A stretch of 45,962 bases of DNA from Litoreibacter sp. GTDB taxonomy: Bacteria > Pseudomonadota > Alphaproteobacteria > Rhodobacterales > Rhodobacteraceae. Shown here piece after piece: positions 3,311-45,962 of the stretch. The position numbers and the translations under genes are program-made. Each line of letters begins with the position of its first letter. The stretch's first letter is position 1. Where the stretch lies: contig JAPORH010000226.1 of assembly GCA_026710325.1 (NCBI GenBank), forward strand, positions 1 through 45,962. The letters are read 5' to 3'. Below the pieces are notes generated by a model. The model had not been told where the DNA came from. It ran no database searches and saw only the letters and a list, made by a program, of their open reading frames with translations.

Positions 3311-3784
3311 ATGGCGAAGCTCACCCATTTTGATGGCGCGGGCCAGGCCCATATGGTCGATGTCTCCGACAAACAGGTAACGGATCGGATTGCGGTTGCA
3401 CGCGGCTCAGTGATTATGTCGTCGGAAACACTTGCGCTTGCGGCTGAGGGCACCGCAAAGAAGGGCGATGTGATGGGGGTAGCGCGTTTGGCGGGTATCA
3501 TGGGCGCCAAAAAATGCGCTGACCTGATCCCGCTGTGCCATCCCCTGCCCATCACCAAGGTCTCCGTCGAGCTGACCCCTGACGAAAGCCTACCAGGCAT
3601 ACGAATTGAAGCCACCGTGAAGACAACGGGTCAAACTGGTGTCGAGATGGAAGCGCTCACCGCAGTCACCACCGCGGCCCTGACCGTTTACGACATGCTG
3701 AAAGCCGTCGAAAAGGGCATGGAGATCACGGATGTGAAGCTCGCGCTGAAAGATGGTGGCAAATCCGGGCGGTTTGAGGCGTGA
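3311..3784 (+). CDS. moaC: cyclic pyranopterin monophosphate synthase (molybdenum cofactor)
   Basis: MoaC converts the cyclo-GTP intermediate made by MoaA into cyclic pyranopterin monophosphate in molybdenum cofactor synthesis. The 157-residue length is typical. Conserved segments are [10 protein letters not shown], the [15 protein letters not shown] block lining the active site, [14 protein letters not shown] and the C-terminal KDGGKSGRF. The ATG directly follows the trpC stop, with AGAGGGA as ribosome binding site, and moeA overlaps its end by 4 nt. The fusion of trp and moa/moe genes in one transcript is typical of Rhodobacterales. Confidence 0.96.
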
Positions 3785-4956
3785 TTTCGGTCAGCGAAGC
3801 GCTTGATGCGCTGTTTGCGCTCGTAGAACCTTTGCCTTCTGAAACTGTTCCACTTCAGGACGCTGCGGGCCGCGCACTGGCTGAAGCAGCTATCGCCAAG
3901 CGCGACCAACCCCCATTCGCAGCCTCGGCCATGGATGGCTACGCTGTTTCAGGGGATGTATCACCCGGGGCCGTTTTTTCTGTTATCGGCGAGGCCGCCG
4001 CAGGACATGCGTTTGACGGTGGCTTAAGCGCAGGCCAAGCCGTGCGAATTTTCACGGGCGCTCCGCTTCCAAACGGCGCGACCCGCGTTGTCATCCAGGA
4101 AGATGTCACACGCGAAGGCGACAAGATCACTTTGAACGAGGGATTGGACACTAAAACTCATATCCGCCCCGCAGGCGGAGATTTCAAAGCTGGGCAGTCT
4201 CTCTCTGCTCCGCGTGTCCTGAGACCCGCTGATCTTGCGCTTCTGGCCTCGATGAATTTCGCGACCGTCAGCGTTGCGCGGCGTCCAACTGTTGCGTTGA
4301 TCGCGACCGGCGACGAATTGGTTATGCCGGGGGAAACCCCAAGAGATGACCAGATCATTGCCTCAAACACATTTGGCCTGAAAGCCATGTTGGAAAACGC
4401 TGGCGCTCAGGTGCGCATGATACCAATAGCTAAGGACACGGAAAGCTCTTTAGCGCAGGCGCTCGATCTGGCTTCTGGAAATAACCTGATCGTCACCATT
4501 GGCGGCGCATCCGTGGGCGATCATGACATTGTCGGAAAGGTTGCGCAGGATCAGGGATTGGAGCGCGCCTTTTACAAAGTCGCAATGCGCCCCGGCAAGC
4601 CGCTCATGGCTGGTAGGATTGGTAATTCCACGCTCGTTGGACTGCCAGGAAATCCTGTTTCTTCAATGGTTTGCGGAGAGATTTTCATCCGTCCGATGAC
4701 CCAAAAAATGCTCGGCTTCCCTGCCGTGCCGCGCGAGATACGCAATGCCAAGCTCGCCTCGCCTTTGGGCCAAAATGGACCGCGGGAGCATTACATGCGC
4801 GCAAAGCTCGACATAGTGAAGGGCACAATCAGCGCGTTCGAACAGCAAGACAGTTCCCTATTAACCGTTCTTTCAGATGCAAATGCTCTGCTTGTGCGCA
4901 AGCCAAGTGACCGCGCGCGCGAAGCAGGTGAGACTGTGAGCTACATCGCCCTCTGA
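3781..4956 (+). CDS. moeA: molybdopterin molybdenumtransferase
   Basis: MoeA inserts molybdate into adenylylated molybdopterin, the last step of Mo-MPT formation. The 391-residue protein has the usual MoeA order: an N-terminal domain with [13 protein letters not shown], a domain with [11 protein letters not shown], the MoCF-binding domain ([35 protein letters not shown]) and a C-terminal beta domain. It begins with GTG inside the moaC stop (GTGA overlap). It is the last gene before the lexA promoter. Confidence 0.95.
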
Positions 4957-40904: not shown

Positions 40905-41000
40905 GCCACTGGCGGCCACCCTAGAGCTTTTGCGACAAGTCGCAGAAACCAACTTGCCGCGAGACCTGTACGCCGGTTAAAAGGACATCGGGGGCTTGCG

Positions 41001-42515
41001 TTGATCAAAGGACACCGAGCTTTGCGCCCTTACCTTTCTTATATATCCGCTTTTTCATTCATCGCAGCAGTGGGCGCGGCCCAGGCTGATGTCACCGCAT
41101 CTGAGGTCTGGGACGGATTCAAATCTCAACTCGCCTTGCTTGGGACGATCGAGGCCAGCGAGACTCGTGTGTCAAATGTTCTGAGCGTGAGTGCGATACA
41201 GTTCAGCGCTCAACAAGATGACGTTGCAGGCTCAGCCGCCCTTGCCGGAGAAATCCTGTTTACTGAGAATGCAGACGGGACTGTGTCAGTTGATATCCCT
41301 GATGGGCTGAAAGGCCGCGTCTCAATCAACGCGCCATTCGGCCAAAGCTCGTTCGACTATGCGTTGGTCCCCGTTGGCTTTGCCGCCGTCGCAAGCGGCG
41401 ATGCCGGCAGCATCGTTTATACTATGGAAGCGGAGCGCCTGACGCATGCATTATCAAATATTGCATTTGACGACGACGACAGAGTCTCAGCAGCACTTGA
41501 GATTGTCACCTCGGGGCTTAAAGGCGGATGGAGCCGAAGCGTCGAAGGCGATAAGGACGCTGTTGCCGCCAGCTACCGCTATGACCAGGTGGCGCTTGCC
41601 GGATCCCTTGATGATGAAGGGAGCGCGTCAAGCTTCAATGTGAACGCCGTCGCGCTTGGTGTCGCGACCGCTGCGGATACGACACTCCCTGATGGTATCT
41701 CGCTCGAAGGACTTGAGGGGTTTTTAACCTCAGGCATTCTGTTTGACAGCCGGACGAGTTATGAAAATTTCTCCTACAGCCTCAACGCGGGCGGGATATC
41801 GGCCCAGGCGAGCATGGGCGCCGGTTTTATTGACGCCGCCCTCGATGACACAGCGCTGACCTATGAGACAAAGGCTGAAGACCTGAAGATAACGGCAAAT
41901 CCGAGCTTTCTTCTCCCTCAAATCGACCTTTCCTTTGCGCAAACGCAATCTCAGCTGCGCGCGACCATCCCAAGCGCAGGCGATGCGCAAGACATCTCCA
42001 CCAAGCTTGTTTACCAAGACGCGGTTTTGAGCGAAGGACTCTGGGGGCTTTTTGACCCGCAAGGCCACCTGCCCCGCGAACCGATCAACCTGTTTTTGGA
42101 GTCAGAGGCACAAGGCGGCATCGAATATCTTAAAGACGCAGCGCCTTTGACCTACCTGCTGCTCAAATCTGATGAACCGCAACCTCTAAAGAGCATCAAA
42201 ATCAATGAACTCTACCTCAATGCGGCCGGGGCCGAGTTTCAAGGCGTCGGCGCATTCAGCTTTGACAATAACGACCTTGAGAGTTTTGCAGGCTTTCCGC
42301 GCCCCGAGGGAAGCGTTGATTTGAACCTGTCCGGCGGCTTTGGCCTGCTCGACAACCTTGCCAAGACAGGGCTGCTGCCAGACGCGCAGGCGCAAGGGAT
42401 CAAGGCGATGGCTGGCTTTTTCGCAAAGCCGGGCGCTGAGCCCGACACGTTGACCTCCAAAATTGAGATCACCGACGAGGGACGGATTTTAGCAAACGGT
42501 GTGCCGATCCAGTAG
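41001..42515 (+). CDS. DUF2125 domain exported protein
   Basis: A 504-residue protein starting with TTG at 41001 behind GGGGG. A signal peptide (LSYISAFSFIAAVGAAQA) precedes a long beta-rich sequence matching the DUF2125 family of alphaproteobacteria (APFGQSSFDYALVPVGFAAV, LKSIKINELYLNAAGAEFQG). The repeated pattern of amphipathic strands suggests a periplasmic lipid-transport-like or outer-membrane-associated protein, akin to AsmA/YdgA families (inference). Only one membrane segment, the signal, is seen. The function is unknown. It converges on the next gene with 3 bp between stops. Confidence 0.85.
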   Translation: MIKGHRALRPYLSYISAFSFIAAVGAAQADVTASEVWDGFKSQLALLGTIEASETRVSNVLSVSAIQFSAQQDDVAGSAALAGEILFTENADGTVSVDIPDGLKGRVSINAPFGQSSFDYALVPVGFAAVASGDAGSIVYTMEAERLTHALSNIAFDDDDRVSAALEIVTSGLKGGWSRSVEGDKDAVAASYRYDQVALAGSLDDEGSASSFNVNAVALGVATAADTTLPDGISLEGLEGFLTSGILFDSRTSYENFSYSLNAGGISAQASMGAGFIDAALDDTALTYETKAEDLKITANPSFLLPQIDLSFAQTQSQLRATIPSAGDAQDISTKLVYQDAVLSEGLWGLFDPQGHLPREPINLFLESEAQGGIEYLKDAAPLTYLLLKSDEPQPLKSIKINELYLNAAGAEFQGVGAFSFDNNDLESFAGFPRPEGSVDLNLSGGFGLLDNLAKTGLLPDAQAQGIKAMAGFFAKPGAEPDTLTSKIEITDEGRILANGVPIQ

Positions 42516-42518
42516 CGA

Positions 42519-43538
42519 TTAGTCGCGGCTCTCCGACATTAAGCCCACCTTCCGCCGAGCGCGCATTTTTGAAGGGGTCATACCGTACTCCTCCCGCACT
42601 GCTTTTGCCAAAGTGTCAGGCGAGCCGAACCCGGTCGCAATGGCGATATCCATAAGTGGCAGCAATGTCTCTTCAATCATGGCGCGCGCGCGCCGGGCCC
42701 GAAGACGCTTGTAAAAGCGCGCGGGCGTTTCGTCGAAGACTTTACGGAACACACGCTCAAGATGGCGCGTTGACAGCCCCGCTTTCGCGGTGAGCTCTGC
42801 CATGGAGAGAGGCTCAGAGATGCTTTCCTCCATCAGTTTGATGGCTTGCGTTACACGCGCATCGAACAGGCTTGCATTGTCCGCCATGTCTTTGGGCTGC
42901 TCCGCATCCGCTTTGCGAATGGTATGAAGAAGAAGCTGGCTGCCGAGTTCGGCGATCTGTGGCGCGGAAAGAACATCCGCCAATAGGCTGATGATAAGCT
43001 CCGCGGTGGCCCCCTGCCCCGCCGCCGTGATGATGCCGCCGCTCGTCTCGGCAAATCGGTTGGTCAAGTTCTCATAGTGGCCCGTCTCTTGCAGGGTCGC
43101 AACATCGCGCCAATGGGTGGTTACCTTTCCGGGCGGGTTTCGCGTGGATTTGATATAAGCCGTTGCTGCATCTGAAAGCAGCACGACGCCTCGCCCCATC
43201 CGTTGCATGCGGCGCGCCCTTGCGCGCCAGGCGTCGGGGCGCGCGCGACCGCCGGGCACAATCATGACATCGCTGAACCCATGATCAGGGATCGCTGGTT
43301 CTGCACGTAAAAGCATGCCATCGCGCCCCGTCAAAAGCCCTGGTTGGTCAGAGACAATGGACCAGGTGAAGCGCTCGGTCGCCAAAAGAACGTTCGCCGC
43401 GCTCAGAACTTTTATCACCGATGCGACTTCAAAAGCGTCAAAGCCTTTACCCACAAAAAGCTCAAAGCTCTTTGTGCGTCGGTCAAGATCATCGCTCTGC
43501 GGGTGAAGGCTCACGCGGGCACTGTCCCAATTTCCCAT
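42519..43538 (-). CDS. GlxA/AraC-family transcriptional regulator
   Basis: A 339-residue regulator with an N-terminal DJ-1/PfpI-like domain (FELFVGKGFDAFEVASVIKV, DVMIVPGGRARP) and a C-terminal AraC domain (RHLERVFRKVFDETPARFY, DIAIATGFGSPDTLAKAVREEYGMTP). The nucleophile-elbow cysteine of the PfpI fold is replaced: the segment reads VVLLSDAATAY. It is therefore a ligand sensor at most. It has no obvious partner operon, and the target is unknown. It is clearly different from the regulator at 22918-23946. Confidence 0.87.
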   Translation of the reverse strand: MGNWDSARVSLHPQSDDLDRRTKSFELFVGKGFDAFEVASVIKVLSAANVLLATERFTWSIVSDQPGLLTGRDGMLLRAEPAIPDHGFSDVMIVPGGRARPDAWRARARRMQRMGRGVVLLSDAATAYIKSTRNPPGKVTTHWRDVATLQETGHYENLTNRFAETSGGIITAAGQGATAELIISLLADVLSAPQIAELGSQLLLHTIRKADAEQPKDMADNASLFDARVTQAIKLMEESISEPLSMAELTAKAGLSTRHLERVFRKVFDETPARFYKRLRARRARAMIEETLLPLMDIAIATGFGSPDTLAKAVREEYGMTPSKMRARRKVGLMSESRD

Positions 43539-43667: not shown

Positions 43668-44099
43668 CTACTGTTGGTTTGCATCAAAATCTGGTGCAAG
43701 CAGTTCATCAACCAACGACATCATATCTTTGTCAGAGAACGGCTTGTTCAAAACCCGATGCGCACCCAAGGACCGCGCAACATTCAGGATGGTTCGGTGC
43801 CCGGTTTTATTTACGGCGCCAGACATGGCGATGATCGGAATTGACAGCATCGACTTTGTGTCTTCTTGCAAAGGGGAGCGCATCGCACCGATCAAACTGA
43901 CGCCGCCATCGGTCGCAATCTCATGTTTCTGATAGATAAAGATATCGCTGATCACGAGATCGACCTTGCGCTCTTTCAAAACCTCTAACGCCTCGCTCGC
44001 GCCGCGCGCCCAAAAGACCTCGTGGCCTCGCGTCTCCAATAGATCGGTCAAGTCAAACGCCAGTTCCGTGTCGTCTTCCAAAATCACAATAAAAGCCAA
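43668..44099 (-). CDS. receiver-only response regulator
   Basis: A 143-residue single REC domain: acidic pair in ILEDDTEL, phosphoacceptor Asp52 in LVISDIFI, the Ser/Thr in AMSGAV and Lys119 in VLNKPFSD. There is an insertion (YQKHEIATDGGVSLIGAMRS) after the phosphorylation site, longer than in CheY. No output domain follows. The start is uncertain: TTG at 44099 with GGTGG upstream is preferred, since no in-frame ATG exists; TTG at 44120 is the longest frame. It is divergent from the phytochrome-like gene. Confidence 0.85.
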   Translation of the reverse strand: MAFIVILEDDTELAFDLTDLLETRGHEVFWARGASEALEVLKERKVDLVISDIFIYQKHEIATDGGVSLIGAMRSPLQEDTKSMLSIPIIAMSGAVNKTGHRTILNVARSLGAHRVLNKPFSDKDMMSLVDELLAPDFDANQQ

Positions 44100-44156
44100 G
44101 CCCAACCACCATAAATGCAAAAGAAGACGCTTTGAGCAGATAAGCCTTGGCGTACA

Positions 44157-44183
44157 ACGTTATTCTGCTAATTTTACGTTATT
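44157..44183. repeat. direct repeat ACGTTATT in the divergent promoter region
   Basis: ACGTTATT occurs at 44157-44164 and 44176-44183, a 19-bp period, between the receiver and phytochrome-like genes. A promoter candidate TTGGCG (44147-44152), 16 bp, TAATTT (44169-44174) overlaps it. The copies may bind a dimeric regulator. Confidence 0.4.
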
Positions 44184-44216
44184 TTATAGAAGTTTAAATC
44201 GAAGGTACATTCCCTT

Positions 44217-45662
44217 TTGATCCAATCGCCAAGCCCCAATCGGTCGACAGCTCGGGTCGAGCAATCCTCGGAGGCCACATCTTTCATACAGCCCATTGGG
44301 TGTCTTTTGGCAGCCGATATGGAAACTGGTAAAATCTCTTATGCAAGCCGGAACTGCCCAGACCTTTTAGGTGTGGAACTAGACTTAATACTTGGCGCTA
44401 AGTTGGGCGACCTTATCGGCACGACGATATGGCACGGCGCGCGCAATGCCGCCGGTCTTCCAGGTTTCGAAAAACGTCGCATTGAACTGGAGGGGATCTG
44501 TATCGGCGGTTGCGACCTAGCCGCAAGTGTCAGCCAAAGCGGGACACTCTTTATAATCGAGCTGGAACCACAGAGCACCTTGTCCACGTTTTCCTTTCGT
44601 GAGCAGGACTTCATTTTCACAAAACTCACCGCGTGCGACGACCTAGATACGCTTTTCTCGACAACGACCCGGCTGGCACGGCATTTGACCGGTTTTGACC
44701 GCGTGATGATTGAGAGGTTCGACCGGAATGGGATGAGCGAGGTCATCTCGGAGGCCAAGACAGGGTCTGATGAACCGATGATGGGGCAGCGCAACTTGTA
44801 TTGGAACAGAAAGAGAGATGGGGGAATACCAGCCTCGCTCTTGCAACCCAGTCTCGTCTCAGATGTGGACGCAGCGCCTGTTGCGATTGTCGCCGCAGAG
44901 CAAAATGCTCCATCGCTTGATTTGCCCCACGTGCTTCTCAAATCTCCACCACCAGACCATCTGGCACAGATGAAAGACATGGGCTCCAAGGCATCTTTGA
45001 CGCTTCCAATTATCGTCGGCTCCACGCCATGGGGCACGCTCTCTTTCCATCATAAAACCGCCAAAACACCGTCCACACAGGTTCGCCAGACCCTGGCTCA
45101 TGCCCTGCTTCCCTTCTTCACGGTAAAACTTGAACAGCTGCGGGATCGCGAATCCCTGGCTGTTTGCAAAAAGCTCAGCGGCTTACAGATGACCCTCCAT
45201 CGTCAAATGGGTCAAAAAAGAGATTTGAACCAAGCCATCTCTTTGATTGGTCCTGAAATTCGCGACGCCTTGGAGGTAGATGGCTTTGCACTTGTAGCTG
45301 ACAGTGCTTCATATTCTTTCGGTATGGTACCGTCCCAAAATGCGATTGATGTGCTCGCCGGCCGCGCAAAGACGTCCGGCGACAAAATTCAGCAGATCGA
45401 TTTGCTCGAAGACGCTCTTGTATCGTCGGCTACTTCAGCAGAGGCAACTGTGTCCGCGCTTGTCGTGGCCGAGGACGCGCCATATTTTTTGATCTTGTTT
45501 AGATACGTAAAGGCAGGTTCATCAGCCCACTATCGTCAGATGGAAGAGAAAGAAAGCGAGACACGGGAGGCGCTTAGAACCCGAGGGCCTGCACCAGCAT
45601 GGACACCCTGTGATTTCGAGCGCGCAGAACACCTCAGACCATTTTTAATGATACAGTCTTAG
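44217..45662 (+). CDS. bacteriophytochrome-like photosensory protein without kinase (PAS-GAF-PHY)
   Basis: A 481-residue protein with the phytochrome module order: PAS_2 (about 22-115; SFIQPIGCLLAADMETG), GAF (about 125-305; HLTGFDRVMIERFDRNGMSE) and PHY (about 310-475; PAWTPCDFERAEHLR). The GAF keeps the pocket histidines His248 (PDHLAQMKDMG) and His278/279 (SFHHK). The DIP motif is replaced by NLYWNRKRDGG, the biliverdin-binding cysteine ahead of IQP is absent, and the PRxSF tongue of PHY is missing. No histidine kinase or other output follows. The start is TTG with GAAGG about 11 nt upstream. The divergent receiver gene is the likely partner. Confidence 0.82.
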   Translation: MIQSPSPNRSTARVEQSSEATSFIQPIGCLLAADMETGKISYASRNCPDLLGVELDLILGAKLGDLIGTTIWHGARNAAGLPGFEKRRIELEGICIGGCDLAASVSQSGTLFIIELEPQSTLSTFSFREQDFIFTKLTACDDLDTLFSTTTRLARHLTGFDRVMIERFDRNGMSEVISEAKTGSDEPMMGQRNLYWNRKRDGGIPASLLQPSLVSDVDAAPVAIVAAEQNAPSLDLPHVLLKSPPPDHLAQMKDMGSKASLTLPIIVGSTPWGTLSFHHKTAKTPSTQVRQTLAHALLPFFTVKLEQLRDRESLAVCKKLSGLQMTLHRQMGQKRDLNQAISLIGPEIRDALEVDGFALVADSASYSFGMVPSQNAIDVLAGRAKTSGDKIQQIDLLEDALVSSATSAEATVSALVVAEDAPYFLILFRYVKAGSSAHYRQMEEKESETREALRTRGPAPAWTPCDFERAEHLRPFLMIQS

Positions 45663-45667
45663 ATACG

Positions 45668-45699
45668 CTTTGCATAAGAGTTACGGCGATCATGCAAAG
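45668..45699. repeat. inverted repeat after the phytochrome-like gene
   Basis: CTTTGCAT (45668-45675) and ATGCAAAG (45692-45699) are perfect 8-bp arms around 16 nt, 5 bp after the stop codon. No T-run follows, so it is a doubtful terminator or a binding site. Confidence 0.4.
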
Positions 45700-45839
45700 G
45701 AGTCTGGGAAAAATTGCTAGTCACTGTATTCCAAAGCCATTTGCCCCCATACTCAATCACACACAGGTCCTCCTTCAGCTCGAGCGTAAAAAAAAAGATG
45801 TACAAACATTAAATCTTAGTAAAATATTTTTCATGACAG

Positions 45840-45868
45840 TTGAATAGAAATGCTGTGCCTGATATCAA
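45840..45868 (+). promoter_or_regulatory. promoter candidate for the amidotransferase gene
   Basis: TTGAAT (45840-45845), 17 bp, TATCAA (45863-45868) lies 39 bp before the start codon in an AT-rich 245-bp gap that also holds a run of nine A. No sigma-54 motif was seen. Confidence 0.45.
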
Positions 45869-45907
45869 AAATTAGCTGCGAACAGACGGCACGAGGGAGT
45901 TGCTAAT

Positions 45908-45962
45908 ATGTGCGGGATTGTTGGTTTATTTTTGAAGGATGCGTCTCTTGAATCTCGGTTGG
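45908..45962 (+). CDS. class II glutamine amidotransferase, partial (GlxB-like)
   Basis: Only 18 residues lie in the window, MCGIVGLFLKDASLESRL. The N-terminal Cys2 is the nucleophile of class II (Ntn) glutamine amidotransferases after removal of Met. The MCGIVGLFLKD form is typical of the amidotransferase subunit encoded with glutamate-synthase-like GlxC/GlxD and a type III glutamine synthetase in Rhodobacterales (recollection). GAGGGAG at 45893-45899 is a strong ribosome binding site. The frame runs off the right edge. Confidence 0.8.
   Translation, partial: MCGIVGLFLKDASLESRL

Follow-up and report, generated by a model that had tools for sequence, protein, structure and literature searches.

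A kinase-less phytochrome-like protein paired with a single-domain receiver in Litoreibacter, and recurrence of such pairs in Rhodobacterales

Phytochromes are model systems for the control of kinases by sensors. Among the described systems closest to the locus studied here, the type 3 bacteriophytochrome RpBphP1 acts on PpsR2 by contact (PMC6899989), and Agp1 has its cognate response regulator encoded in the same operon (PMC8117939). Here we analyse a pair of divergent genes, one for a phytochrome-like protein and one for a single receiver, in a Litoreibacter genome of 4.19 Mb (99.75% complete). The pair lies on contig C93, whose entire 45962 bases are referred to below as the window. A full-text search, judged by title and the start of the abstract and with most subscription journals outside its scope, found no publication describing such a pair. 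An earlier note on this DNA, made from its letters, had given the coordinates and strands of both genes correctly (Table 1).

Table 1. Features of the gene pair in the window, and the places where insertion-type receivers adjoin phytochrome-type PAS-GAF genes
Feature	Position	Strand	Remarks
Single-domain receiver	43668-44120	-	150 aa; sole Pfam match Response_reg, E 2.8e-11
Receiver insertion after Asp59	43908-43943	-	residues 60-71
Divergent intergenic spacer of the pair	44121-44216	.	96 bp
Phytochrome-like protein without kinase	44217-45662	+	481 aa; PAS_2-GAF-truncated PHY
PAS_2 domain	44277-44573	+	residues 21-119; Pfam E 9.9e-13; bilin-binding Cys absent upstream
GAF domain	44640-45071	+	residues 142-285; Pfam E 1.8e-11; His248 and His278 retained; DIP and the majority of the remaining pocket residues replaced
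PHY match	45186-45503	+	residues 324-429; Pfam E 9.5e-8; only profile positions 5-113 of 183
Tongue and last helix, shortened in alignment	45504-45659	+	no WAG, no PRxSF, no helix into a kinase
PAS-GAF-adjoining insertion receivers	window, G421, G190, G345, G307, G273:C6, own C111, G254		G254 degenerate, by profile only

In the window protein PAS_2, GAF and PHY all score above the Pfam gathering thresholds, the PHY match being partial, and Pfam finds no domain after PHY; the C-terminal PAS9 and HOS of type 3 phytochromes are absent. The domain order given in the earlier note stands, and so does its statement that nothing follows, but the clean stop after PHY does not, as the tongue and last helix are shortened. 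The closest solved structures by sequence are bacteriophytochromes (E 1e-33), the first PDB matches including Agp2-derived entries, and together with the Pfam domains these matches uphold the kinship with phytochromes. The gene starts at a TTG codon and its open frame extends just nine codons further upstream. A kinase hidden by a frameshift near 45660, an outcome that the earlier note had envisaged, was rejected: a tblastn search of 45401-45962, with the kinase region from the genome's second phytochrome as the query, returned a single match, at E 9.5, and a different frame begins at 45908.

The chromophore pocket was compared in an alignment of the window protein with 38 longer relatives from the fetched loci (frames of 606 to 1009 aa), using ten pocket columns, each at least 90% conserved in the longer relatives; the choice and labels of these residues (Asp207, His260, His290 etc.) follow DrBphP. 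The window protein keeps only 2 of the 10 pocket columns but 24 of 35 further columns conserved to a similar degree (Fisher p 0.008). The two are the equivalents of His260 and His290, while those of Tyr176, Asp207, Pro209, Arg222, Arg254, Ser257, Tyr263 and Cys24 are replaced or missing. The Asp of the DIP motif, found in 38/38 longer relatives, is Asn197 here; the biliverdin-binding Cys upstream of PAS (37/38) is absent, as are WAG and PRxSF of the tongue. The alignment therefore confirms the two retained His and the missing upstream Cys, DIP and PRxSF of the earlier note, which was right to call the pocket altered and understated by how much, most other conserved pocket residues being gone as well. 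Its view of Cys29 as a new cysteine did not survive, since a Cys occupies this position in 23 of the 38 longer relatives, and Cys29 was rejected as a novel attachment site for the same reason. The corresponding comparisons for L060 (3 of 10 pocket columns kept, 20 of 35 others; p 0.12) and L136 (2 of 10 and 14 of 35; p 0.22) were not significant.

The two His would fit a light sensor that holds a bilin non-covalently and signals to the receiver by contact. On contig C111, beside the genome's own full phytochrome and between it and a receiver gene, there is also a frame that we take, on weak resemblance, to be heme-oxygenase-like; the own heme-oxygenase-like copy falls short of the cut-off for PF01126 (E 0.14), and searches of solved structures with two copies gave no match. 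Used as a query, the own homologue found no match in G421, G794, G797 and G802, a query that could easily overlook other heme oxygenases, as G421 and G797 have canonical phytochromes. Protein-contact output has a precedent in RpBphP1/RpPpsR2 (PMC6899989). Eight pocket equivalents are nevertheless replaced or missing and the PRxSF of the tongue is gone, and the sequence read around the pair holds no heme-oxygenase-like gene beside it. A light or tetrapyrrole sensor is disfavoured by the replacement of 8 of 10 pocket columns, compared with 11 of 35 other similarly conserved ones, and we regard the non-covalent bilin sensor as highly doubtful.

An AlphaFold2 model built from four sequences (pLDDT 56.8) has PAS and GAF blocks mostly above 70 and falls below 50 close to the pocket (residues 194-208 and 220-243) and in most of PHY; a single-sequence fold reached pLDDT 32.4. 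The 50 Foldseek matches listed for the window protein all belong to phytochromes (TM-scores 0.3 to 0.5), and model and matches support a phytochrome fold, not its details. The top match (E 1.6e-21, other phytochromes close behind) is 8bor, the DrBphP photosensory module without its PHY tongue, and the tongue of the window protein is shortened; this rank says little, because the other 49 matches listed are also phytochromes and the model is middling.

The receiver carries no output domain by Pfam, and its start codon is uncertain, TTG being the only choice. It keeps Asp16, Asp59, Ser100 and Lys126, which are invariant in the receiver alignment. A profile of three insertion-type receivers (window, G421 and G190) found the type in 20 places at E <= 1e-20 across 394 genomes of the family, nine candidates per genome being scored, and four of the 20 are in the window's own genome. 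The single, divergently transcribed receiver with an insertion was thus as the earlier note had it, but other receivers share the insertion. A phytochrome-type PAS-GAF gene lies next to eight of the 20 (Table 1), or to 5 of 17 when the three that built the profile are set aside, and by reading the phosphorylation-site residues are intact in 8/8 paired receivers. Kinases for insertion-type receivers probably exist, because five of these receivers adjoin kinase-like frames (by reading; only the one in the own genome was seen whole, a hybrid kinase). The own genome has two more insertion-type receivers, at G000:C111:1634-2044, the end of the hybrid kinase gene, and at C186:161-562.

The sensor search covered 394 genomes, of which 72 had a match, with up to four candidates per genome scored. 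Among the matches listed no other frame stops right after PHY, and a contig scan using the window protein alone found no close relative. In G421, a protein of PAS-GAF only is encoded tail to tail with an insertion receiver, and the sensor search found such a relative in 4 of the 13 genomes of that genus; the receiver adjoins in 4/4, always tail to tail. Records named uncultured Roseicyclus sp. match two of these loci and Rhodobacterales bacterium HKCCE4037 a third, and we refer to the group as Roseicyclus-type. Identity between its PAS-GAF proteins is 60% for the closest pair and 37-45% for the other species pairs, between its receivers 79% and 59-64%, and between the flanking genes 67-94% (three loci compared). 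For the closest pair pN is 0.25 and pS 0.72 in PAS-GAF, and 0.12 and 0.71 in the receivers, ratios that are rough because synonymous sites are near saturation. The Roseicyclus-type sensor is under constraint, loosely.

Such rapid change, much faster than in the flanking genes, is what a decaying gene would undergo, and the window copy could likewise be a remnant beside the receiver, on its way out: its PHY is truncated, motifs are lost, it has only TTG starts and no close relative was found. Yet 481 codons stay open, the G+C at the three codon positions (0.58/0.46/0.56) resembles that of the neighbouring gene 3781-4956 (0.65/0.48/0.57), the Roseicyclus-type copies are constrained and the pairing is kept in two further genera, so that decay strikes us as fairly improbable. 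The same relatives bear on a ligand or redox sensor, whose GAF would bind heme, another tetrapyrrole or a metabolite, or which would use its cysteines, the ligand state setting the availability of the receiver. A bacteriophytochrome has reportedly evolved from a light into a redox sensor; PAS, GAF and both pocket His are kept in the window protein, and it has seven Cys, including residues 95 and 99. The Cys95/Cys99 pair, however, is not common to the four Roseicyclus-type relatives, and no shared ligand site is visible, because both pocket His equivalents are lost in 4/4 of them. We hold a ligand or redox sensor to be unlikely.

Other frames were also noted. G202 encodes a protein of PAS-GAF only (L063:5887-6819, 311 aa) that belongs to another phytochrome clade, is without the upstream Cys or DIP, and has no insertion receiver on its 8-kb contig; the frame that precedes it, which has no Pfam match, we take to be heme-oxygenase-like. 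Among the matches listed for a class sample of 385 genomes, the sole short frame has 232 aa and lies at the end of a contig. A 194-aa frame in G260 (L084:7375-7956) matches only PAS and early GAF of the window protein. Finally, a 985-aa phytochrome-like frame (L087:4807-7761, G401:C5) has a GGDEF-like end by reading, no bilin Cys and an altered DIP region, and is possibly another bilin-free relative.

A related degenerate protein is present in 3 of the 4 genomes of the genus of G254; G254 entered through the receiver search and the other two through the sensor search. None of the three proteins reaches the Pfam cut-off. Their three-row alignment, compared by hhalign with a 44-row phytochrome PAS-GAF profile, matched over 263 columns (Prob 97, E 1e-10), as against Prob 1.6 at most in 20 column shuffles and 0.8 for the reversed alignment, and it matched a five-row kinase-less alignment with Prob 88.7; one degenerate protein alone gave no match in hhalign (Prob 3.3). 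An insertion receiver lies directly downstream in 3/3, in L140 and L142 by comparison and in L141 by reading. The gene order at these three loci is a CheB-type methylesterase (PF01339 in L142), a divergent Pfam-less frame, the degenerate PAS-GAF and then the insertion receiver, which in L140 is followed by a LuxR-type regulator with an autoinducer domain. Searched for in other Rhodobacterales, as the earlier note had proposed, the pairing recurs with the same receiver type in two further genera, and because these relatives show it too, the pair may serve a function in its own right.

The sensor tree comprised 44 PAS-GAF regions, drawn from fetched loci only and leaving out the degenerate proteins of the genus of G254. 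In it the window protein and the four Roseicyclus-type proteins form a single clade (99/98), nested in a larger one (100/99) that also includes seven full-length phytochromes; the kinase-less label requires two origins, of which G202 is the second. Long-branch attraction may bring the reduced proteins together. The tree was re-run with six long rows dropped, and a second time with three further rows dropped: without the six long rows the window/Roseicyclus-type grouping has 100/98, and without the Roseicyclus-type rows the window protein, whose branch is then very long, still belongs to this phytochrome clade (100/99). The window and Roseicyclus-type sensor parts share ancestry. Within the enclosing clade, an insertion receiver adjoins five of the seven full-length phytochromes (G190, G345, G307, G273 and own C111), and none was found in the 17-18 kb loci of G006 and G020. 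The Pfam check behind the HWE kinase label covered two members of this clade; in the own one the receiver domain is below the cut-off. In the receiver tree, likewise built from fetched loci and with much of its backbone unsupported, the window receiver groups with the genus of G254 (91/90), apart from the Roseicyclus-type receivers, which form their own clade (98/96). Receivers adjoining phytochrome-type genes are scattered over this tree (7 label changes), so a change of partners and inheritance of the pair as a unit are equally likely.

The PHY family search found a full-length protein in G000, G421, G797, G805 and G807 and nothing in the other three of the eight pair-bearing genomes (G794, G802 and G254). 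Because of these three, serving a full phytochrome cannot be the general role of the pair, which does not seem to need a working one. This bears on a further reading, in which the window protein dimerises with the cell's full-length phytochrome and modulates it through mixed dimers. The own genome does have a full-length member of the same clade with an insertion receiver in its gene cluster, but the window protein is only 30% identical to this protein, and the three genomes have the pair and no protein in the PHY search; mixed dimers are disfavoured as a general role, and we judge this reading very unlikely.

An AraC-type regulator (DJ-1/PfpI and HTH_18) is encoded at 42519-43538, on the receiver's strand and some 130 bases downstream of it. 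It is matched at E <= 1e-40 in 17 of 21 genomes of the genus, the own included, and its neighbour, the ORF 40905-42512, is kept in 4 of the 19 non-window loci (L115-L118). The genes of the pair have no match in 19/19 of these loci, which span only some 1.5 kb each side and in which the choice of ORFs missed even the AraC frame in L119, L127 and L131, and the AraC gene does not appear to belong to the module. At the far end of the window (45908-45962) a frame starting MCGIVGLFLKD is cut by the contig end; we take it to be class II glutamine amidotransferase-like.

Of the three readings in the earlier note, a decayed phytochrome working as a scaffold or by protein contact is the best supported, with recurrent pairing, kinase and pocket lost and the receiver site kept. 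We tentatively favour, with a confidence somewhat short of even, a light-blind phytochrome descendant retained as the partner of a receiver that another kinase phosphorylates, a proposal built on sequence comparison. Its ancestor would have been a full PAS-GAF-PHY-HWE kinase-receiver phytochrome, of a clade often encoded beside an insertion-loop receiver, and its line would have lost the kinase together with its own receiver domain, the attachment of bilin, the greater part of the pocket and the tongue of PHY, probably becoming light-blind, and retained the partnership with the separate receiver. Another histidine kinase would phosphorylate this receiver on Asp59, and the receiver would bind the PAS-GAF-PHY protein depending on phosphorylation. 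The latter could be the receiver's scaffold or target, or a ligand-gated partner that sequesters it through GAF. A bolder and rather less probable generalisation is that Rhodobacterales harbour a family of phytochrome descendants which, having lost kinase, chromophore, tongue and PHY step by step until only a PAS-GAF beyond recognition was left, persist as dedicated partners of single-domain receivers; the signal would then be reversed, with the former light sensor downstream as the target.

With the Agp2-like bacteriophytochromes (PAS-GAF-PHY-HWE kinase-receiver, including the own G000:C111; Agp2 itself is outside the tree) the window protein shares the PAS_2-GAF-PHY order and both pocket His, and it differs from them in being without kinase, own receiver domain, bilin Cys, DIP and PRxSF. 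Like RpBphP1 it has no histidine kinase and is proposed to act by protein contact, but RpBphP1 is photoactive and ends in PAS9 and HOS, whereas nothing follows PHY in the window protein and its proposed partner is a receiver. As with Agp1, a separate regulator is encoded with the phytochrome; that regulator is phosphorylated by the phytochrome's own kinase (PMC8117939), whereas the window protein has no kinase left. Stages of the opposite path, away from the kinase, seem to be preserved, all with a receiver: the full phytochrome, PAS-GAF-PHY, PAS-GAF and a PAS-GAF invisible to Pfam. This points to a contact between sensor and receiver that survives the loss of the kinase, and opens a way to test the role that single-domain receivers play.
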